Shown: piece after piece, positions 126 to 9,377 of the stretch
Layout: each line of letters starts with the position of its first letter
Numbering within the stretch: position 1 is the first letter of the stretch
Position numbers and translations under genes: made by a program
The notes under the pieces: model-generated
What the model saw: the letters and a program-made list of their open reading frames with translations, nothing else
Told to the model about the DNA's origin: nothing
Databases searched by the model: none
IMG/VR virus record: IMGVR_UViG_3300033550_000158
Span: 1 to 20,407 of that record
Length of the DNA stretch: 20,407 nucleotides
DNA from: a virus
Direction: 5' to 3' (one strand)

Positions 126-2339
126 GTGGACCTTTCGAGTTGTGGTACGCCAGAAGCTCGCCGCGACCGAGAGGTCTTCTTCCGTGGCGTCTTTGGAGCA
201 GGAGAAGGCATCATCTGCATAGGTGTATCCCCCGTCCCTCTACCTGGCACAAAACGGAAGTTGTACCGCAGGTACTTCAATTACCCAGGCGAGCTTAATT
301 CAGCACTCGACCTGATCGAAACGAACATCACTGTGGCAGACTTGTACTTCTGTCCACAACTCCTAAATGAACAAAACCTTCATAAGGGCGCAGTTGTCAG
401 TTGTCCTAACGCTTGGGCTGACCTTGATGATTGTACGCCCATCAAGTTGCTGGTACCACCTTCGATTGCCTGGGAGACATCTCCAGGACGATTTCAGGCC
501 ATCTGGCGACTAGATCCCAACCTCGATCCGTTAGAAGCGGAAGCGCTATCGCGTCGCATAGCCTACTATCACGCAGGCGATGGTGCTGATCGAAGTGGGT
601 GGGACCTCACACAGTTTCTCCGTGTCCCGAGAACTGGTAACTTCAAACACGTTGACGACCTCTCAGGTAACCCGGCAATCGTTCGAATCGTAACTGGTAC
701 GACGATCAAGTATCGACTCGCCGACTTTGAAAAGTATCCCGACGTTAAACGAGTCGAATTCCTTGAACTACCCCTTCCGTCAGTCATACCGACAGAAGAC
801 CCGTTGGAGATCATTCAACGGTACAGGCGGACAATCAGTCCACTTGTGTTCAGCTTGTTCGAGACAGAACCGCAGGGAACCTGGAGCGAGAAACTCTGGC
901 GCCTTATGATCCTATGCTTCGAAGCAGGCATGGAGATGCCAGAGGTTTTGCACATCGCAAACCAGTCTGCCTGCAACAAGTATCGTCGAGACGGTCGACC
1001 AATCGACTACCTCTGGCGAGACGTATGTCGTGCCTACGTTCGAGTTCAGCAGAACGCAGGTGCGGTAATCATTCCAGCAGCACCTCAAGTCGAACTCCTT
1101 ACGCCGGACGAGCAAAACAGTTCGCCCGGTGAAACGTTCATCGAGCGGTACATCAGGTGGGCAAGTGACCTAGGTGATGCCGCTCCGCAGTACCATACGG
1201 CTGGAGCGTTCATCGCACTTAGCTCCATCCTGTCAGGGCACGTACGTCTTCCGACATCATTCGGAACGATGGTACCTAACCTGTGGTTCATGATTCTTGC
1301 CGACACAACACTCACTCGGAAGTCCACGGCAATGGACATCGCTATGGACTTGGTCAACGACATCGACGATGATGTCCTCTTGGCAACCGACGGATCACTT
1401 GAAGGGATGATGCAAGCACTATCTACCCGTCCAGGTCAACCGTCAGTCTTCCTCCGTGACGAATTCAGCGGACTACTGGAGATGATGACGAAGCGTGACT
1501 ACTACGCTGGTATGGCAGAGATGCTGACCAAGCTGTATGACGGGAAGATTCAGAAGAGAATCCTACGGAAAGAAACTGTCGAGGTACGTGAACCGGTACT
1601 ACTCATCTTTGCAGGAGGCATCAGGAACCGCGTTCAAGCACTTCTGACAACGGAACATATCTCGTCAGGCTTCATGCCACGATTCGTATTCATCACGGCT
1701 GAGTCTGACGCTGCACGTGTTCGACCACTCGGGCCGCCAATGCTGGCTGACACGTCTAGACGTGACGGTCTTCTAGCAGAGCTGTCAAGTATGGTGGCTC
1801 ATTACCACGTGATCGACGGAACGCGAAACACAACCAAGAAGACCCAGGCAGAGCTTTCCCCAGCTGCTTGGGCAAGGTACAACAAGTTAGAGTCAGACAT
1901 GCTGGTCGCCGGCCTTGATTCCGAAAGGCCAGACCTCATGACACCTGTGTTCGATCGTTTGTCCAAGTCAACGTTGAAGGCTGCACTACTCATAGCAGCC
2001 TCACGTCAACGAGACGAAAGGGTTTGTGTTACTGAAGAGGACATCGTCGACGCGATTCGATTCACCGTTCAATGGCGAACGTACGCAATCGAGGTCATCA
2101 ATGGTGTGGGCAAGTCAGCTGTCGAACGTGATCTGGACAGAGTACTTGGATCCATCGTACGCGGTCCTGGTGTGTCTAGGTCACAACTCATGCGCAGCTA
2201 CCACCTGACAGCAAGACAGGCCGATGCCATCTTCGATACACTCATCCAGCGCGGACTGATTGCTATGTCAAGACTAGGTGGGACTACAACATTCATGCCG
2301 CTAGCACCGGCTAAGGACGACAGAAAGGTTGGGAAATGA
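126..2339 (+). CDS. PrimPol-DUF3987 type DNA primase-helicase
   Basis: This 737-residue replication protein probably primes and unwinds phage DNA. The N-terminal part resembles archaeo-eukaryotic (RepB/PrimPol) primases: WADLDD gives the metal-binding D99 and D101, SPGRF lies near 119-123, and the third acidic region is GWDLTQFLRVPRTGN (D160). The second half resembles DUF3987 helicase-like ATPases, with a deviant Walker A (ADTTLTRKST, 392-401) and a Walker B ending in DE (445-446). The last ~60 residues look like a winged helix that could bind DNA. GTG at 126 is chosen because the frame has a stop just upstream, no earlier start codon exists, and AGAGAGGGG lies 5 bases before it. An ATG at 124 in another frame closes after 32 codons. 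The stop overlaps the queC start (ATGA), so the two are probably translationally coupled. Family placement is by motif only. Confidence 0.8.
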   Translation: MDLSSCGTPEARRDREVFFRGVFGAGEGIICIGVSPVPLPGTKRKLYRRYFNYPGELNSALDLIETNITVADLYFCPQLLNEQNLHKGAVVSCPNAWADLDDCTPIKLLVPPSIAWETSPGRFQAIWRLDPNLDPLEAEALSRRIAYYHAGDGADRSGWDLTQFLRVPRTGNFKHVDDLSGNPAIVRIVTGTTIKYRLADFEKYPDVKRVEFLELPLPSVIPTEDPLEIIQRYRRTISPLVFSLFETEPQGTWSEKLWRLMILCFEAGMEMPEVLHIANQSACNKYRRDGRPIDYLWRDVCRAYVRVQQNAGAVIIPAAPQVELLTPDEQNSSPGETFIERYIRWASDLGDAAPQYHTAGAFIALSSILSGHVRLPTSFGTMVPNLWFMILADTTLTRKSTAMDIAMDLVNDIDDDVLLATDGSLEGMMQALSTRPGQPSVFLRDEFSGLLEMMTKRDYYAGMAEMLTKLYDGKIQKRILRKETVEVREPVLLIFAGGIRNRVQALLTTEHISSGFMPRFVFITAESDAARVRPLGPPMLADTSRRDGLLAELSSMVAHYHVIDGTRNTTKKTQAELSPAAWARYNKLESDMLVAGLDSERPDLMTPVFDRLSKSTLKAALLIAASRQRDERVCVTEEDIVDAIRFTVQWRTYAIEVINGVGKSAVERDLDRVLGSIVRGPGVSRSQLMRSYHLTARQADAIFDTLIQRGLIAMSRLGGTTTFMPLAPAKDDRKVGK

Positions 2340-3148
2340 CTAAGTACGATAGCGTTGCCATTTGCAGTGGCGGTCTCGACAGCTCAACTCTGGTCTACCA
2401 CATGGTCGACAACGGACTGCGACCGCACCTGTTGTCGTTCGACTACGGTCAGCGACACGTGAAGGAACTCGAGTACGCGGCGAACCTCGCAGAGCGTCTC
2501 GACTTGAAGTGGAACCGAATCGATCTGTCGGGCATCACGCAGCTGATCAGCAACTCGGCACTCACGTCGCAAGACAAGACAAGCCACCCAGAGATCCCGG
2601 CAAGGCACCGTGCAATCGAAGTTCCGGACGGACACTACGCCGAAGAGACCATGAAGGCCACGGTCGTACCGAATCGCAACATGATCATGCTGTCAATCGC
2701 GATCGGTGTCGCCGTCAGCAACAACTACCAGGAGATCGGCATCGGCGTCCACGGTGGTGACCACTTCATCTACCCGGACTGCCGTCCGAACTTCATCAGT
2801 CACATGAATCGTGTGGCTGAACTCGGCAACCTCGGCTTCGGCCCCTACGAGGAGGTCAAAGAGCCGGAATGGGGTGCTATGCCGTATGGTCTCATCAACG
2901 CTCCATTCCTCAACTGGACGAAGGCGGACATCGCCTATCGGGCACTCGAATTGAACTTACCACTGTTCGAGACGTGGAGCTGCTACAAGGGCGGCGAGAT
3001 CCACTGTGGACGATGCGGTACGTGTGTCGAGCGTCTCGAGGCCATCGACGAGGCCATCAAGCGGCACGAAGAGCGTGACCGGGACTTCATAGACTACACT
3101 CGATACCAAGACACCGAGTTCTGGAAGACGGCGGTGAAGGATGCCTAG
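2336..3148 (+). CDS. queC: QueC, 7-cyano-7-deazaguanine (preQ0) synthase
   Basis: QueC uses ATP and ammonia to turn 7-carboxy-7-deazaguanine into preQ0, the last step of preQ0 synthesis in the cytoplasm. The 270-residue protein has the N-type ATP pyrophosphatase P-loop SGGLDSS (11-17) close to the N-terminus. The C-terminal zinc site is complete: C216, C224, C227 and C230 in CYKGGEIHCGRCGTC. Length is close to ordinary bacterial QueC. There is no extra glutamine amidotransferase (Gat) domain of the kind fused to QueC in phages that make archaeosine-type DNA, so the product should stop at preQ0. The start overlaps the primase stop, and the end overlaps the 65-aa gene at 3141. Identification is firm. 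Confidence 0.96.
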   Translation: MTKYDSVAICSGGLDSSTLVYHMVDNGLRPHLLSFDYGQRHVKELEYAANLAERLDLKWNRIDLSGITQLISNSALTSQDKTSHPEIPARHRAIEVPDGHYAEETMKATVVPNRNMIMLSIAIGVAVSNNYQEIGIGVHGGDHFIYPDCRPNFISHMNRVAELGNLGFGPYEEVKEPEWGAMPYGLINAPFLNWTKADIAYRALELNLPLFETWSCYKGGEIHCGRCGTCVERLEAIDEAIKRHEERDRDFIDYTRYQDTEFWKTAVKDA

Positions 3149-3338
3149 GAAGCTGATCGGACGTCGCAAGTCTGCTGGCGACGTGATCATCGTCACACTA
3201 CGTGATGGCGACACATGGGAGGTGACAGGGGAATTCGTCACGATCTTCAACGACAAGGGCAACTCAGCGTTCCGGATCTACTCGGACGTTGTTCGCATCG
3301 TTGAGGTGGAAGTCGACGAAGAGCCGGTCTCTGTTTAA
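3141..3338 (+). CDS. 65-aa protein of unknown function in the preQ0 operon
   Basis: The gene starts with ATG inside the last codons of queC (8-base overlap) and ends 46 bases before queD. The protein is small and looks rich in beta strands: VIIVTLRDGDTWEV, GEFVTIF and VVRIVEVEVDEE alternate hydrophobic and polar residues, suggesting a small barrel such as an SH3- or LSm-like fold. The N-terminus is basic (PRKLIGRRK) and the C-terminus acidic. I do not recognise a family. Its position between queC and queD makes a link to base modification possible, but that is only guilt by association. Confidence 0.7.
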   Translation: MPRKLIGRRKSAGDVIIVTLRDGDTWEVTGEFVTIFNDKGNSAFRIYSDVVRIVEVEVDEEPVSV

Positions 3339-3357
3339 CTAGCTCCGCTCTTCAACA

Positions 3358-3384
3358 CAAACCACACACGGCGAGAGGAACGTA
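3358..3384 (+). promoter_or_regulatory. Leader/RBS element of queD, repeated upstream of the P-loop gene
   Basis: The 22 bases at 3358-3379 (CAAACCACACACGGCG then AGAGGA) match 10257-10278 at 21 of 22 positions; the only difference is G versus A inside the ribosome binding site. Each copy ends about 5-6 bases before an ATG (3385 and 10285), and each follows a non-coding gap, whereas most other genes here overlap their neighbours. The element therefore includes the Shine-Dalgarno sequence plus about 15 conserved bases 5' of it. It may be a conserved translational enhancer, protein-binding leader or promoter-proximal site. Confidence 0.7.
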
Positions 3385-3903
3385 ATGCCAAGATTTGGTG
3401 TTAAGAAGCACATCACCTTCGATGCCGGACATCGTGTGCCGGATCACGGAGGCAAGTGCTTCAGCCCGCACGGGCACACATACAAGCTCGAGCTCCACGT
3501 CAAGGGAAACGTACAGGTCGACGGCGTTGAGAACGGTATGGTTCTCGACTTCACACGGATCAAGGAGATCCTGACCGAGATTCACGACATGTTCGACCAC
3601 GCCTCGATCGCCTACGAGATGGACTGGCCCTATCTGGTTTCGCTCGGCGAAGCCAACTACTACGGGTTCGATGACCCCAGCGTGCCACCCGTTCTGATCG
3701 ATCGAGAGCGCGGCGACGAAAACCGCTACGGCTGGAAGGTCGCGGTTGTCCCGTTCGTGCCAACCGCTGAGAATCTCGCCCTGTGGTGCTTCGAGTACGC
3801 CACGAACAGATTCAAGGAGTTGAACTTGCCTGGAACGGTGACACGTGCTGACATCTGGGAGACGCCTACTTCGATGGCGTGCTTCCCTGTCAACGGCGAC
3901 TAA
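3385..3903 (+). CDS. queD: QueD, 6-carboxy-5,6,7,8-tetrahydropterin synthase
   Basis: QueD converts 7,8-dihydroneopterin triphosphate, made by FolE, into 6-carboxytetrahydropterin, the second step to preQ0. Zinc ligands H16, H29 and H31 are present in FDAGHRV and PHGHTY, with catalytic C25 in KCFSPHGH. The FDH pair (D71-H72), the PTAEN motif (126-130) and the pterin-binding E159 in WETPTS follow the family order. At 172 residues it is longer than typical QueD (about 120). The extra length falls around 75-120, between the DH and PTAEN motifs. ATG 3385 is preceded by GAGAGGAACGTA, part of the repeated leader element. The stop is followed at once by the 74-aa gene. Confidence 0.94.
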   Translation: MPRFGVKKHITFDAGHRVPDHGGKCFSPHGHTYKLELHVKGNVQVDGVENGMVLDFTRIKEILTEIHDMFDHASIAYEMDWPYLVSLGEANYYGFDDPSVPPVLIDRERGDENRYGWKVAVVPFVPTAENLALWCFEYATNRFKELNLPGTVTRADIWETPTSMACFPVNGD

Positions 3904-3904
3904 C

Positions 3905-4129
3905 ATGTCGGCAGGCTTCTTCCGCGTCAGCATCATTATCAAACCACCTCGGGCGAGGGCAAGCAAGGTCGTCACGCTACTCGTCCCAGACAATCTCCTC
4001 GAAGAAACGGACGGCAATGAGTTTCGCCGTAAGCGGGCCGAGGAGACTGTCGCAACATCGTTCGCCACCTTGTACGTGCAAGTCGTAAGGGCAGAGGAGC
4101 AACGTGCTACGCGTCGTCGAAAGGTATGA
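3905..4129 (+). CDS. 74-aa protein of unknown function between queD and queE
   Basis: An ATG one base after the queD stop opens a 74-codon frame that fills the gap up to queE and overlaps the queE start by 26 bases. The N-terminal half is hydrophobic and basic (FFRVSIIIKPPRARASKVVTLLVPDN). The C-terminal half alternates charges and ends in a basic ATRRRKV, so nucleic-acid or partner binding is possible. No strong ribosome binding site precedes it; translation may depend on coupling to queD. It would otherwise leave an unusual 200-base gap in a tightly packed operon. No family recognised. Confidence 0.6.
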   Translation: MSAGFFRVSIIIKPPRARASKVVTLLVPDNLLEETDGNEFRRKRAEETVATSFATLYVQVVRAEEQRATRRRKV

Positions 4130-4808
4130 CAGCTTCCAGGGTGAAGGACCCAACACCGGGAAGCCTACCATGTTCGTCCGCTTTGCCGGCTGCAACTTCA
4201 AGTGCGCCGGCTGGGCATGCGACACACAGCATGCCATCGATCCCAAGCTGTTCACTGTGACACAGCAAGTGCTGGATCCGCAAGTCCTGATCGATCGTAT
4301 CCTCGCCGACAGTAGTGCTGGCGGTGTCAACAACATCTGCTTCACCGGCGGCGAACCCTTCCTGCAGAGGCATGACGAGCTGCTGGAAGTGTGGTCGGCC
4401 CTCAAGGCTCGCGACCGTACGATCGAAGTCTTCACGAACGGTTCACTTGCGTGGCCGAACGTGGACTTGGTCGACAACATCATCTTGGACTGGAAGCTTC
4501 CAGGCTCAGGTGAATTCCCTGACGACAACTTCTTGCTGACGAACGTCGGCAAACTTGGTGAGAACGACGCCATCAAGTTCACGATCAAGAACCGTGCAGA
4601 CTTCGACCGCGCAATGGATAACTACCAAGTAGTTCGGCAGATGTACGAAGTCCTCGGTCGACCAAGCCCGCAGATCTGGTGTGGCCCTGTGTGGGGTGCG
4701 CTAACCGCTGAGAAGGTCGCGCGCTGGATCCTCGCAGCAGGTCTGCGGTGGCACTTGAACGTGCAGACCCACAAGTTCATCTTCGGAGCCGACACGCAAG
4801 GGGTGTAA
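4104..4808 (+). CDS. queE: QueE, 7-carboxy-7-deazaguanine synthase (radical SAM)
   Basis: QueE is a radical SAM enzyme that rearranges 6-carboxytetrahydropterin into 7-carboxy-7-deazaguanine. The N-terminal ERYDSFQGEGPNTG (6-19) is typical of the family. The iron-sulphur cysteines are C30, C34 and C39 in AGCNFKCAGWACDT. Spacing is therefore CX3CX4C rather than the usual CX3CX2C; QueE is known to tolerate variants here. The SAM-binding GGEP lies at 82-85, and EVFTNGS and DWKLPGSGE follow as expected. At 234 residues the length is normal. GTG 4104 is chosen because GAGGAG at 4094-4099 lies 4 bases upstream. Two bases after its stop lies the TTG of folE. Confidence 0.93.
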   Translation: MLRVVERYDSFQGEGPNTGKPTMFVRFAGCNFKCAGWACDTQHAIDPKLFTVTQQVLDPQVLIDRILADSSAGGVNNICFTGGEPFLQRHDELLEVWSALKARDRTIEVFTNGSLAWPNVDLVDNIILDWKLPGSGEFPDDNFLLTNVGKLGENDAIKFTIKNRADFDRAMDNYQVVRQMYEVLGRPSPQIWCGPVWGALTAEKVARWILAAGLRWHLNVQTHKFIFGADTQGV

Positions 4809-4810
4809 CT

Positions 4811-5464
4811 TTGTCCTCTTACTCCTCCTCCGCCCCCTTCGTCGGCGGAGAAAATCCCCCACCCACCGTACAGCAGATTACTAAGTGGCCTGACCCGGTA
4901 GTCGATTGGGCTCGGGAGGCGTTGCAGCACTATGCCGGCTTGGAACACGACGAGCACGGTGCCGACACGCCCAAGCGGTTCCTGGGCATGCTTGACGAAC
5001 TGACACAGTGTAAGGATGACTCACCCGAGCATCTTGAACTGTGCGTCAAGTGGAAGCAGTTCAAGAACGATAGCATGGACGAGATGATCGTCATGACGAA
5101 CATTCCGTTCGTGTCTTTGTGCAACCATCATGTGGTCCCATTTGTGGGCAAGGTACACGTAGCCTACATCCCCGGGACGACAATATGCGGACTTAGTAAG
5201 CTGGGTCGAGTAGTGCGCCACTTCGCCCGCCGACTGCAGTTGCAGGAACGCATGACCGAGCAGATCGCCTCCTTCCTCACCGACAGGCTTCAACCTCTCG
5301 GTGTGGCAGTCCAAGTCGAGGCCGAGCACCTCTGCATGACCATCCGGGGTGTGCAGCTTCCCGGCGCGTTGACGACGACCTCAAGCATGTGGGGCGTCTT
5401 TGGTGACCACAGCAGGACGGCCAAGGCAGAGTTCCTGCAGATCGTACAAGGAGGCAGAGCGTGA
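4811..5464 (+). CDS. folE: FolE, GTP cyclohydrolase I
   Basis: FolE opens GTP to 7,8-dihydroneopterin triphosphate, the entry step to preQ0 (and folate). With the TTG start the protein has 217 residues, close to E. coli FolE (222). The zinc site is intact: C104 and H107 in SLCNHH, and C175 in EHLC with H173 beside it. GLSKLGRVVRHFARR (127-141) and QERMTEQIA match the conserved family core, as does RGVQLPGALTTTS near the end. TTG 4811 is preferred over a GTG at 4748 because AAGGGG (4798-4803) lies 7 bases upstream and the extra N-terminus would only shadow queE. Its last four bases (GTGA) are the start of the next gene. Confidence 0.93.
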   Translation: MSSYSSSAPFVGGENPPPTVQQITKWPDPVVDWAREALQHYAGLEHDEHGADTPKRFLGMLDELTQCKDDSPEHLELCVKWKQFKNDSMDEMIVMTNIPFVSLCNHHVVPFVGKVHVAYIPGTTICGLSKLGRVVRHFARRLQLQERMTEQIASFLTDRLQPLGVAVQVEAEHLCMTIRGVQLPGALTTTSSMWGVFGDHSRTAKAEFLQIVQGGRA

Positions 5465-5943
5465 GCAACGGTTTGACCGAGGACCAAATGATTTCACTGG
5501 CCAAGCCTGCCCATGACAGGCGGTGCTCGTGCGACGCGAAGTACATCATGGCCTGCTCCATCATGGCCGCCGAGATCCTGAAGTTGGGAAAGGTTAACCA
5601 GAAGCCAACCACCATGGAAGAGCTGGTCAAGCAGTGCATCGTTGACAGCCGTCGTTGGTTCCCCAGGAGCTTCGAGACAGACCTGTTAGGCATCACGTCC
5701 TTTCTCACCCTGTGCGTGAACGGCGAGTCGGGCGAGCTGGCCAACAAGGTCAAGAAGATCCTCCGCGGCTCGGTGTCGTTCAGTGATGGTGTCGAGGCCG
5801 TCATCGAAGAGGCCATGGACATCCAGATCTACCTCGCCAACCTGTTCGGTGAGCTGGGCGTCGACGTGTTCGAGGAGTACTGGAAGAAGCGGCAGCGCAA
5901 CGAGGAGCGGTTCGGAGGGAGGACAGCACAATGGCCGATCTAG
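5461..5943 (+). CDS. MazG-like nucleotide pyrophosphohydrolase
   Basis: This 160-residue protein appears to be an all-alpha NTP pyrophosphatase of the MazG superfamily, which hydrolyses nucleoside triphosphates to monophosphates using Mg2+. The metal-binding signature is visible as E89-x2-E92 in GESGELANKVKK and E117-x2-D120 in EEAMDIQIYLANL, followed by a helical stretch to the end. The N-terminal 40 residues carry an unusual HDRRCSCDAK...C cluster (H18, C22, C24, C32) that could bind a metal; this is not part of the standard fold. The GTG start overlaps the folE stop by four bases. A role in shaping the nucleotide pool beside the modification genes is inferred. Confidence 0.78.
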   Translation: MSNGLTEDQMISLAKPAHDRRCSCDAKYIMACSIMAAEILKLGKVNQKPTTMEELVKQCIVDSRRWFPRSFETDLLGITSFLTLCVNGESGELANKVKKILRGSVSFSDGVEAVIEEAMDIQIYLANLFGELGVDVFEEYWKKRQRNEERFGGRTAQWPI

Positions 5944-6284
5944 GAGAGGCGCAACGCGAAGAACTCACCGAGTTGTCGGGTGCGACACTCATCGAGGTCA
6001 TCCAGGAGGCATCTGAAGCCTTCGAGCTGATGATGCAGGAGCGCCACGACGCTGGCGCAGAGAAGTACGGTCCGGCGAAGTTTTTGACCGTCGATACGAT
6101 CGACGAAGCCTTGGCAGAATTGGTCGACTTGGCCAACTACGCCAGGTTCACCTTCATCAAGCTGGTCATACTCAAGATCAAACTCCAGGAGGTCGTTGCT
6201 ACGGCCGAAGACAGCGCCGGTATTCCCGACCGACCACAAATGCTGGGCGCTAGCACCATCTTCAACCCACAAGTGAAGGGGTAA
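5931..6284 (+). CDS. Small MazG-like or related helical phage protein
   Basis: The 117-residue protein overlaps the previous gene by 13 bases and has GGAGG 8 bases before its ATG. The segment ERHDAGAEKYGPAKFLTVDTIDEALAELVDLANYARF (37-73) resembles phage MazG-like and related nucleotide-pyrophosphohydrolase proteins, with E63-x2-D66 as a possible metal pair and acidic E22, E26, E29 upstream. The full E-x2-E/E-x2-D arrangement is less clear than in the neighbour at 5461, so it could be a non-catalytic partner. Two such genes side by side, between folE and dpdA, suggest a paired or heteromeric enzyme. Function is tentative. Confidence 0.68.
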   Translation: MADLGEAQREELTELSGATLIEVIQEASEAFELMMQERHDAGAEKYGPAKFLTVDTIDEALAELVDLANYARFTFIKLVILKIKLQEVVATAEDSAGIPDRPQMLGASTIFNPQVKG

Positions 6285-6286
6285 CC

Positions 6287-7069
6287 ATGCAACTTGCTCT
6301 GATTCCTCCCAAGGGGTTGGAGGCACGACTTCTCGATACGACAGCGCAGATGGCGCTTCCGATCGTCGCGCAGAACCCAACCTACGTCCAGACAATCAAC
6401 GCTGCCAAGAACCGCGGCGACTTCATCATGATGGACAACGGTGCAGCTGAGCACATGCCGATTCCGACGACGAAGCGCCTGTGTACACAGGCCCTATTGT
6501 TTGGTGCGGACGAGGTTGTACTGCCTGACGTGTTGTACGACGGCCCCAACACCATGCAACTCACGAGGCAGTTCTTCGACGAGTTGAAGTACCTCCCCAT
6601 CGAATTCAAGGGCGCACTGGCCTTCGCAGGTGTCGCGCAAGGGAAAAACATCAACGAGGCAAAGGTCACAATCACTGAGCTGGCCGAGATATCGTCCGTC
6701 GACACCATTTGCCTGCCTCGGCTCCTGATCTCGCAGCAGTACAAAGCCATCCGCATCGACCTCGCCGACTGGATCACGGAGAACTTCCCTGACCGGTTCA
6801 AGATCCACCTACTCGGTACCAGCCCGGTCTGGCCTGCCGAGATCCAAGCTGTGTCGCGGTACGCCAGGTACGTGCGATCGGTCGATACGTCACTACCTTT
6901 CAACTACGCCATCGCAGGCGTTCCGCTAGCACGTAAGTCCGTCCCACCCATCCACCGGCCCAGCACCTACTTCAGTGAGAGCTGGGCACGCATCATGAAC
7001 TACACGCTGCTACAGGCAAACATCAACACCATGCTGGAGTGGCTTGATGCAGAAGCACCCGTTGGCTGA
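6287..7069 (+). CDS. dpdA: DpdA-like 7-deazaguanine DNA transglycosylase
   Basis: DpdA is the phage relative of tRNA-guanine transglycosylase; it exchanges guanine in DNA for preQ0 or a related base. This 260-residue protein shows FIMMDNGAAE (46-55), ADEVVLPDVLYDG (74-86), FAGVAQGKNINEA around Q118-G119, IHLLGTSPVWP and RSVDTSLP (197-204), a series typical of the TIM-barrel phage TGT-like family. The four-residue zinc site of bacterial tRNA-TGT is absent, as is normal for short phage DpdA. AAGGGG six bases before ATG 6287 supports the start. It closes the row of preQ0 genes and overlaps the polymerase gene. Identification by motif and context is strong; which 7-deazaguanine it inserts is inferred from the pathway genes. 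Confidence 0.88.
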   Translation: MQLALIPPKGLEARLLDTTAQMALPIVAQNPTYVQTINAAKNRGDFIMMDNGAAEHMPIPTTKRLCTQALLFGADEVVLPDVLYDGPNTMQLTRQFFDELKYLPIEFKGALAFAGVAQGKNINEAKVTITELAEISSVDTICLPRLLISQQYKAIRIDLADWITENFPDRFKIHLLGTSPVWPAEIQAVSRYARYVRSVDTSLPFNYAIAGVPLARKSVPPIHRPSTYFSESWARIMNYTLLQANINTMLEWLDAEAPVG

Positions 7070-9377
7070 TTGTGACAAATGTCCTCTCTCGGATGAGAAG
7101 TACGTTCCATCCGAGATCCCTGACAATCCACGCCTCGTCGTCGTAGGCGAGGCTCCAGGCTTCCAGGAGGCTGTACGTGGCAGGCCGTTCACCGGCCCAT
7201 CGGGCCAGCTCCTCGACCGAGTCCTTAAGCACCATGGTTATCCCCGTCATCAGGTGGCGTATACCAATGTGGTCTCGTGTCGCCCTCAGAACAATGCGAC
7301 TCCTCCTAAGAGTGCGATTACTGCATGTCGAGGGCGGCTCATGGGAGAACTTGGACTCGTCGGAGTCCGTGATATCGTTGCACTTGGCGGGACGGCGGCA
7401 TCGGCTCTCGTTGAGGATTCGAGGGCAATTACCAACCTCCGAGTCGGTCCCCCTAAGGCCGCAACGCGGGGGTTATCCACAATTCCTGGTGCACGCGTTG
7501 TTGCAACATGGCACCCTGCCTATTGCCTTCGAACTCCGGACGCGTTCCCCTCACTCGTCACGGACATCGGCAAGCTAACGAGGAGAGACGTCGATGTATG
7601 GACTCCACCGACATGGCGATACTTTGACGACCCTGCTGATGCGCGACGAGCCATCGGAGAGTTGGCCCGTACAGCGGATCGACTTGTCGTGGACATTGAG
7701 GTCGGCATTGACAAGGACGTTAGTTTCGGCCACCCAAACGAGTACGATCTCCTATGCGTGGGACTCGCTTACGCAAAAGGAAAGGCAGTGGTACTTGGGT
7801 CTGGTGCACTTGCCGACAGGACTGTTCTGGATGACCTCGGGCAACTCCTACGCCAAACACGAATCATTGCTCATAACGGCAAGTTCGATCTGGCGGGACT
7901 TTTTCCGACACTCGGACCGTTGGAGCTCTGGTTTGATACCATGCTCGCCTCCTATGCCTTGGATGAAAGGCCGGGGCAGCACGGGCTTAAAGTCCTTGCA
8001 GTGGAACGTCTCGGCGCTCCGAAGTACGACGACGAAATCTTCCAGTTCATACCTAAAGGCGGAAACTACGCCGACATCCCAAGAGAGGTCCTCTACAGGT
8101 ACAACGCCTTCGACGTAGCTTGTACTTGGGACTTGTACGAGCTGTTTGAACCTGAACTCGAAGCTCAGGACCTCAGACGGGTTCATGACTACATGGTGGC
8201 TGCGTCGAACCAACTTATGTACCTCGAGATGAACGGCATCAAGATCGACAAGGAGTACAGCCGTAAGCTCGATGGCGAATACCTCCAGAGGCTGGAGGAA
8301 CTAGAGCAGGAGCTCGGAACGTATGTCAGTGCTGCCACCAACGGAGAAGTCGACTTTCTCAATCCGCGATCCCCTCAACAGATCAAACGATTCCTGGCTA
8401 GGTGTGGAATTAACGTTGGATCTACGGACGTGGATCACCTCACTCCCCTCCTGGCGCGGTTGGCTCCCGGACCGGTCCAGGATTTCGTGTCTGGGCTGCT
8501 ACGGCACAGACGCGAACAGAAACTCTACGGTACATATGTCAAAGGTATTAGAAAACGGCTGTACCGCGGTCGGGTGTATACAACTTACATGCTGCACGGA
8601 AGCACATCCGGACGGCTTGCTAGTCGCAATCCGAATCTGCAAAATATCGTGCGAAGTAAGGAGATCCGACGGCAGTTTACTGTCGCGAAGCCAGGCCATG
8701 TATTAATCCAGGCCGACTACAAGCAGGCCGAAGGACGCATCATCGCAACCATGGCACAGGACGAATACTTGCGCCGTGTGCTCAGCGATCCGGAGATCGA
8801 CATCTTCGATGACATGTCCGACCTACTCTACGGGCCAGGTAACTGGCGCAAGGAAGTCGAACGCATCAGAACGAAGGCGTACTTCTACGGACTGAGCTAT
8901 GGGCGTGAGGCATTCTCTATCGCCATGGAGTACAAGATCCCTGTCGCAGAAGCCGAACGCAGACTTCGGGAGTTCCGAGATCTGATTCCGGCAACATCGC
9001 GATGGCAACAGATGGTTCGCCAACAAGTCTTGGACGGTGAGGACCTTGTCACCCCATTTGGACGAAAGAGACGCTTCTGGCTCATCACCAAGGAGAACAA
9101 GAAGGACGTGCTCAACGAGGCCTTGTCCTTTTTGCCACAGTCCACTGCATCCGACATTTGCCTCGGGTCGCTGGTACATCTGCGTCCTATGCTTCGTGGT
9201 ATGGGATGGATCCGACTTACGATTCATGACGCTCTTGTCGTGGAGTGTCCCGAATCTCGTATTGACCAGGTGTCGGAGTTGCTGCGGCAAGCAATGGTCA
9301 GCGAGGCCGCTAAGTACACCGACTACGTACCGTTCCCGGTAGACATCTCAATCGGCACAACGTGGGGTGACCTATGA
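7047..9377 (+). CDS. UDG-PolA fusion: family A DNA polymerase with N-terminal uracil-DNA glycosylase-like domain
   Basis: This is the 776-residue replicative polymerase. Residues 1-180 match family-4 uracil-DNA glycosylases: four cluster cysteines (C9, C12, C78, C94), GEAPG (34-38), GRPFTGPSGQLLD and a TWHPAYCLR motif. A 3'-5' proofreading domain follows with all expected residues: D216-x-E218, N277...D281, and Y352-x3-D356. The polymerase domain has motif A ADYKQAEGR (D557), motif B R606-x3-K610-x3-Y614-G615, and motif C IHDALVVE (H727-D728). Y614 occupies the O-helix position that is Phe in E. coli Pol I. There is no 5'-3' exonuclease domain. ATG 7047 is preferred over TTG 7044 because GGAG lies 7 bases before it. 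Such fusions are known, for example in the SPO1 polymerase. The gene overlaps dpdA and the next gene. Confidence 0.93.
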   Translation: MQKHPLADCDKCPLSDEKYVPSEIPDNPRLVVVGEAPGFQEAVRGRPFTGPSGQLLDRVLKHHGYPRHQVAYTNVVSCRPQNNATPPKSAITACRGRLMGELGLVGVRDIVALGGTAASALVEDSRAITNLRVGPPKAATRGLSTIPGARVVATWHPAYCLRTPDAFPSLVTDIGKLTRRDVDVWTPPTWRYFDDPADARRAIGELARTADRLVVDIEVGIDKDVSFGHPNEYDLLCVGLAYAKGKAVVLGSGALADRTVLDDLGQLLRQTRIIAHNGKFDLAGLFPTLGPLELWFDTMLASYALDERPGQHGLKVLAVERLGAPKYDDEIFQFIPKGGNYADIPREVLYRYNAFDVACTWDLYELFEPELEAQDLRRVHDYMVAASNQLMYLEMNGIKIDKEYSRKLDGEYLQRLEELEQELGTYVSAATNGEVDFLNPRSPQQIKRFLARCGINVGSTDVDHLTPLLARLAPGPVQDFVSGLLRHRREQKLYGTYVKGIRKRLYRGRVYTTYMLHGSTSGRLASRNPNLQNIVRSKEIRRQFTVAKPGHVLIQADYKQAEGRIIATMAQDEYLRRVLSDPEIDIFDDMSDLLYGPGNWRKEVERIRTKAYFYGLSYGREAFSIAMEYKIPVAEAERRLREFRDLIPATSRWQQMVRQQVLDGEDLVTPFGRKRRFWLITKENKKDVLNEALSFLPQSTASDICLGSLVHLRPMLRGMGWIRLTIHDALVVECPESRIDQVSELLRQAMVSEAAKYTDYVPFPVDISIGTTWGDL

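Follow-up and report, generated by a model that had tools for sequence, protein, structure and literature searches.

A 20,407-base IMG/VR record (IMGVR_UViG_3300033550_000158; hereafter the window), a fragment of a tailed-phage genome of roughly 50 kb, carries on its + strand at 2336–7069 an operon that in all likelihood puts a 7-deazaguanine derived from preQ0 (7-cyano-7-deazaguanine) into the phage DNA, by way of a predicted transglycosylase encoded at 6287–7069. The genes run in the order QueC, a 65-residue open reading frame (ORF), QueD, QueE, FolE, MazG1, MazG2 and the DpdA-like gene; next comes a gene for a fused uracil-DNA glycosylase (UDG), exonuclease and DNA polymerase A. The 7-deazaguanine reading is well supported because enzyme families, motifs, predicted fold and conservation all agree with it. 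An initial annotation had recognized five of these functions (FolE, QueD, QueE, QueC and the DpdA-like enzyme), and profiles, motifs and a predicted barrel of the tRNA-guanine transglycosylase (TGT)/DpdA type bear it out; its prediction of 7-deazaguanine in virion DNA is likewise supported by families, motifs and fold. The observation that is new here is the recurrent pairing of DpdA3-like genes, such as that of the window, with nucleoside triphosphate (NTP) pyrophosphohydrolases and/or nucleotide kinases.

In the proposed scheme, FolE, QueD, QueE and QueC would convert GTP to preQ0, as expected from established enzyme families. The 260-residue TGT-fold enzyme would then remove guanine from deoxyribose through a covalent intermediate at Asp200 and insert preQ0, as its fold and invariant residues suggest. 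The corresponding deoxynucleoside (dPreQ0) would then be present in the phage DNA, probably in large amounts, and would protect it from restriction enzymes that read guanine. MazG1, for which MazG2 may be a partner, belongs invariably to the module and would probably adjust the (d)GTP pool.

The preQ0 pathway and the transglycosylase

All four enzymes of preQ0 synthesis are present with intact motifs. QueC (2336–3148), a preQ0 synthase lacking a Gat domain, scored 166.7 bits against TIGR00364, above the equivalog cut-off, and retains all five canonical motifs (SGGLDS, YGQRHVKE, VPNRN, YPDC and C-x7-CxxCxxC), the experimentally refined signature being that defined in PMC13329287; in the zinc motif, seven residues rather than eight precede CxxCxxC. 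QueD (6-carboxytetrahydropterin synthase; 3385–3903) matched PF01242 (E 1.2e-27), phrog_2389 and the PDB entries 2oba and 4ntm, and carries the CxxxHGH motif as CFSPHGH. QueE, the radical S-adenosylmethionine (SAM) 7-carboxy-7-deazaguanine synthase (4104–4808), matched phrog_2076 (E 1.6e-29) and solved QueE chains (4njg; E 4e-8), with matches to TIGR04349 and TIGR03963 falling below cut-off; its cluster motif, GCNFKCAGWACD, has the spacing CX3CX4C in the window and many relatives, and CX3CX2C in four loci (L045, L046, L060 and L072). FolE (GTP cyclohydrolase I; 4748–5464) matched PF01227 (E 2.5e-55) and solved FolE chains (E 6e-39) and contains the ligand motifs CNHH and HLCM. Its true start may lie past the QueE stop, the domain beginning near residue 59.

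The protein encoded at 6287–7069 gave no confident match in Pfam, PHROG or NCBIfam. Its AlphaFold2 model, built from 12 sequences (pLDDT 92.6, pTM 0.90), has the TIM-barrel fold of TGT and DpdA. The top PDB matches to the model were all TGTs (Foldseek E 2e-7; Z 16.9); bacterial DpdA (7ui4), which inserts preQ0 into DNA, scored Z 16.6, such lists being informative only about the folds they contain. Profile alignment paired D50, D81, H174 and D200 with D72, D114, H196 and D215 of the phage 9g enzyme, and D200 with the aspartate in the fDcvmpt motif of Escherichia coli TGT; each of the 22 relatives compared keeps all four residues. The TGT zinc site of three cysteines and a histidine is absent, the protein having two cysteines, neither conserved in the alignment. 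Because the site is a feature of TGT, its absence makes an ordinary TGT less likely and leaves a DpdA identity unaffected. A search of the PDB with the DpdA profile (hmmsearch) returned chance matches only, and the transglycosylase assignment therefore rests on fold, motifs and BLAST similarity to the Flavobacterium immuto phages, whose gene is annotated as a DNA guanine transglycosylase (tblastn 5e-8). As judged from the model, the protein is a member of the TGT/DpdA superfamily. A 15-member DpdA alignment contained no stretch conserved enough for scanning.

Among 50,697 phage records, tblastn matched the enzyme only to Youna2, the BSP7/BSTP phages, the immuto phages and a Chryseobacterium phage; no match to Rosebush or 9g DpdA appeared even at E 5. 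In the BSTP phages MW354678, MW354669 and MW354677, the gene corresponding to dpdA bears the labels NadR, integrase/recombinase and polynucleotide kinase, apparently wrongly. A tree of 33 sequences (22 DpdA3-like, 10 of the 9g/Rosebush type and E. coli TGT) placed the window enzyme outside the Rosebush/9g clade (support 100/99), and a 96/88 branch set the 22-member DpdA3-like group apart from both DpdA1 and TGT. The branches are long, that of E. coli TGT very long, and the deep order is unsure. Membership in DpdA1, the 9g/Rosebush type, was rejected on the separate clade and on H141, which is replaced by Q or other residues, the equivalent of H196 being kept. The initial annotation had taken Rosebush as its parallel; the enzyme instead falls with those of immuto, CP220, phiST and BSP7. 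By sequence it shares a clade with the enzymes of immuto and Campylobacter phages, a class that has reportedly been named DpdA3 and tied to complete guanine replacement.

Members of this clade are small TGT-fold enzymes that share the invariant D50/D81/H174/D200 set and are otherwise divergent. The immuto DpdA and the CP220-type protein are each about 25% identical to the window enzyme, and the immuto DpdA is 43–44% identical to unannotated proteins of the Campylobacter phages CP220, CPt10 and CP21. The closest viral fold match was CGPG_00065 of Cellulophaga phage phiST (TM 0.82; 17% identity), for which the BFVD entry M4SLA5 was taken on its equal length of 259 residues. DpdA2 of Vibrio phage nt-1, a member of the TGT superfamily compared via the BFVD fold list only, matched weakly (TM 0.47); DpdA2 lacks H196, which the window enzyme keeps.

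The module is conserved well beyond the window. With the polymerase as query, scanning returned 11 loci, and with the transglycosylase 42; the order FolE-MazG1-MazG2-DpdA-polymerase is fixed across 30 related loci. The operon order also occurs in the cultured phages Youna2 (Weizmannia) and BSP7 (Bacillus), which share with the window the series primase, QueC, QueD, QueE, FolE, DpdA-like gene and UDG-type polymerase A. Their transglycosylases are 27–28% identical to that of the window and are annotated as hypothetical proteins. Unlike the window with its MazG1 and MazG2, both phages have a thymidylate-kinase-like gene directly before dpdA, its end overlapping the dpdA start. Chance is excluded because of the E-values and because the gene order is shared by dozens of independent contigs and by the two isolates. 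With the BSP7/Youna2 pair as query, no uncultured relatives were found. The bacterial genomes of the collection yielded no relative either, hence no host or prophage was identified, and the suggestion in the initial annotation that the host may lack the synthesis genes is conjectural.

The predicted base in the DNA

The end base is probably dPreQ0 itself, as read from the gene content. Two points favour it: QueC has its full set of motifs, and the relatives showed no QueF, class-II glutamine amidotransferase domain or formyltransferase. Absence is judged here from the relatives' environmental contigs, of unstated completeness, many of the longer ones measuring about 50–54 kb. The initial annotation had left later modifiers to the rest of the genome; the search of the relatives' contigs covered three families (QueF, GATase_6 and Formyl_trans_N). 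All eight matches to QueF scored below cut-off and, where checked, lay at FolE genes, which have QueF's fold, so that QueF was rejected; neither the class-II amidotransferase (GATase_6) nor the DpdN-kind formyltransferase (Formyl_trans_N) was found in these contigs. The marks of dG+, dPreQ1 and fdPreQ1 are accordingly missing, QueC having no Gat domain and the relatives having no QueF or formyltransferase. A minimal set of FolE, QueD, QueE, QueC and DpdA is known to yield dPreQ0 at 28% of G in Rosebush and 32% in CAjan.

Several points weigh against this reading. To our knowledge, no mass spectrometry exists for any member of the window lineage. The window is a fragment, and a modifier of another family, such as an ArcS-type amidotransferase or DpdL/DpdM, could be missed. 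Identity of the enzyme to named homologues is only about 25–30%, and with the TGT zinc site absent as well, its substrate and product are predictions. The end base could instead be the amide dADG or the carboxylate dCDG, which we consider unlikely: in Campylobacter phages whose enzyme is homologous, the reported base is dADG and not dPreQ0, whereas the QueC of the window has the full canonical signature for the complete reaction from CDG to preQ0. The nearest relatives of this QueC are also mycobacteriophage proteins (about 40–43%, about 40% for the Rosebush type), whereas its identity to the QueC of Campylobacter phages is lower (about 34%); the mycobacteriophage proteins include that of Arbiter, which is filed under the species Rosebushvirus rosebush. 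CP220-type phages are presumably among the C. jejuni phages that replace deoxyguanosine. By its title, one report describes two subfamilies of C. jejuni phages that replace genomic deoxyguanosine (Crippen 2019), and high levels of dADG modification are reported for Campylobacter phages that have preQ0 genes but no recognized DpdA (Hutinet 2019). The choice of dPreQ0 made in the initial annotation thus stands as the likeliest base, unproven and with dADG possible; the accompanying claim that part of the guanine is replaced is unsupported, the enzyme grouping with those of Campylobacter phages reported to replace deoxyguanosine. On the extent of replacement in the window phage, the sequence gives no reading.

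Phages with the preQ0 pathway and no recognized DpdA are also precedents for carriage of these genes without proven DNA modification, and a boost of host queuosine has been suggested for them. That the window genes would only raise queuosine in host tRNA, the DpdA-like protein having another role, is nevertheless very improbable: the operon invariably includes a TGT-fold enzyme whose catalytic residues are all present, and this enzyme is inherited together with the phage polymerase.

Nucleotide-pool genes and the level of base exchange

Between FolE and the DpdA-like gene lie MazG1 (5461–5943) and MazG2 (5931–6284), both on the + strand and both absent from the gene list of the initial annotation. 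MazG1 is a nucleotide pyrophosphohydrolase of the MazG/dCTP-pyrophosphatase type. It matched phrog_229 (E 1.3e-8), its family profile matched PDB 2q73 (E 4.6e-11) and dCTP pyrophosphatase 1 (E 1.8e-9), and its ExxE/ExxD metal motif (GESGE ... EEAMD) is that of the MazG superfamily. MazG2 is a small, helical, conserved protein with the pattern RHxxGxxKYGP ... ExxDxxNY and is possibly MazG-like; its structure model (pLDDT 68.9) was too poor for a fold search, and comparison of the two family profiles revealed no significant similarity. Thirty loci contain both FolE and DpdA; MazG2 is kept in all 30 and MazG1 in 28.

Genes of this kind recur beside DpdA3-like genes, and rarely beside dpdA of the Rosebush/9g type. 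In the immuto group (32 clusters at 90%), a kinase was found in 32 of 32, a pyrophosphohydrolase in 31, a phosphoribosyltransferase in 26, QueF in 31 and a formyltransferase in 30; QueF, formyltransferase, phosphoribosyltransferase and kinase are additions for which the window lineage yielded no counterpart. Phage phiST resembles the window in having QueD-QueE-FolE-MazG near dpdA and differs in the intervening kinase, the order being MazG, AAA_18 kinase, dpdA. An AAA_18 kinase lies directly upstream of dpdA in Chryseobacterium phage MA9V-3, and in CP220 an HD-AAA_33 fusion precedes the dpdA-like gene and an AAA_28 kinase follows it. In Aeromonas phage Ahp1, the dpdA-like gene is followed by a deoxynucleoside monophosphate (dNMP) kinase and then by a dCTP-deaminase-fold gene. 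A DpdA3-like gene near a dCTP-deaminase-fold gene was also seen across T4-like phages (L038, 8995–10978; L182–L202), all of these genes being annotated as hypothetical in Ahp1. A dNMP kinase was detected in three of the T4-like loci only (L038, L182 and L183); elsewhere it was mostly unseen, and the dCTP-deaminase-fold gene stays. A phage-encoded (d)NMP kinase was thus found in BSP7, Youna2, phiST, MA9V-3, CP220, immuto and Ahp1, and not in the window lineage.

As a control, 17 dpdA loci of the 9g/Rosebush type had none of these genes adjacent. The set is small, and smaller once near-copies are merged, and kinases in it were sought by BLAST, P-loop motif and annotation only. Exceptions at a distance were three: in Funsized, a gene annotated as adenylate kinase at about 2.4 kb; in L171, a weak MazG match at about 2.3 kb; and in L170, a MazG-like match at about 5 kb.

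These neighbours suggest, at the level of gene content, that the base may be exchanged on nucleotides before DNA synthesis. On this route, MazG1 and MazG2 would make dGMP from dGTP and so draw down the dGTP pool, the DpdA3-like enzyme would swap guanine for preQ0 or a derivative of it on the free nucleotide, host kinases (phage kinases elsewhere) would raise the product to dPreQ0TP, and the UDG-exonuclease-polymerase would build fully substituted DNA; we hold this as a tentative possibility. A kinase and/or pyrophosphohydrolase stands beside dpdA in the window family, immuto, BSP7, Youna2, phiST, MA9V-3, CP220 and Ahp1, most Rosebush/9g-type loci are without such genes, and a modified-dGTP pathway has been proposed in the literature for Campylobacter phages. 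Against it, no AAA_18, AAA_28, DNMK, thymidylate or guanylate kinase scored over cut-off in 12–14 long contigs of the window phage's relatives, nor was a phosphoribosyltransferase found there, so that host enzymes would have to supply the kinase step. In two loci (L001 and L002), neither a recognizable kinase nor MazG adjoins the transglycosylase gene, and the T4-like group has its kinase in the three loci alone. Gene neighbourhood is also not biochemistry, and DpdA insertion has reportedly been concluded to be post-replicative.

The Rosebush model, in which the transglycosylase acts on finished DNA and converts only part of the guanine to preQ0, accounts for the minimal gene set, which suffices for dPreQ0 in Rosebush and CAjan, and agrees with the mycobacteriophage affinity of QueC, with the modification of plasmid DNA by 9g DpdA in E. 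coli and with the lack of a detected kinase in the window lineage. As a whole it is rather doubtful. Rosebush and 9g DpdA1 share with the window the preQ0 pathway enzymes and the histidine matching H196, but they form a separate clade, do not have H141 in common with it, show no BLAST similarity to it and are mostly without a nearby MazG or kinase; the group to which the window enzyme does belong is linked to guanine replacement, reportedly and by the title cited above. The model also leaves the fixed MazG pair without a role. Because the identity of the base (dPreQ0 or dADG) is a separate question from the route (DNA or nucleotide), the probabilities given to these alternatives are partly overlapping. 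On the route alone, exchange on finished DNA is slightly ahead for the window phage because its lineage has no recognizable kinase.

Flanking genes and significance

The polymerase gene (7044–9377, + strand) starts within the end of the transglycosylase gene and encodes a fusion of a family 4-like UDG (PF03167), a 3'-5' exonuclease (PF01612) and a family A DNA polymerase (PF00476). The fusion is conserved in the relatives and in Youna2 and BSP7, likewise next to dpdA. An identity as the aminoadenine polymerase DpoZ was rejected, the score lying far below cut-off and reflecting ordinary PolA similarity. The polymerase ORF reaches 1081 residues at L016 3057–6209/L030 2967–6212 (IMGVR_UViG_3300043313_000586), owing to an intein-like insert (CVDPGTKILTADLRW ... 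YIAEGLLSHN, then C) that splits the UDG domain directly after its HPAY motif, and the version in L065 has 1028 residues. In Youna2 and BSP7 (L004, 8764–12033; L005, 8683–11586), the polymerase is annotated as two genes, separated by roughly 300–680 bp, with the break in both at the same residue, about 616–619 of the window protein; the arrangement resembles an intron or a split gene.

Upstream, the run begins on the + strand with a primase/helicase-like gene (126–2339; RepB-type primase plus DUF3987; PF13148, PF16793 and phrog_10514 DNA primase, E 1.4e-83), which is outside the modification pathway. The 65-residue ORF (3141–3338, + strand) matched no family and has a counterpart of 39% identity at the equivalent position in one relative (G004, L027–L029; 30181–30405). 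The right part of the window (about 7527 onward) was independently assembled, since it is matched by a second contig, IMGVR_UViG_3300033551_000084 (L010), with proteins 98–100% identical; the L010 locus excludes the operon.

How some phages replace all of their guanine with 7-deazaguanines is an open question. In the lineage described here, the operon is present in at least 30 loci from uncultured phages, and the literature found on the cultured BSP7 (Bacillus subtilis) and Youna2 made no mention of queuosine-pathway genes or restriction. Nucleotide-pool enzymes of several families are regular neighbours of one DpdA branch and are mostly missing beside another. This contrast makes exchange on DNA versus exchange on nucleotides directly assayable, BSP7 and Youna2 being cultured phages that carry the operon. 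If true, nucleotide exchange would mean that a transglycosylase can serve a pre-replicative route, contrary to the reported conclusion that all insertion by DpdA is post-replicative, and the enzymes would also be usable as tools to make 7-deaza-dGTP.

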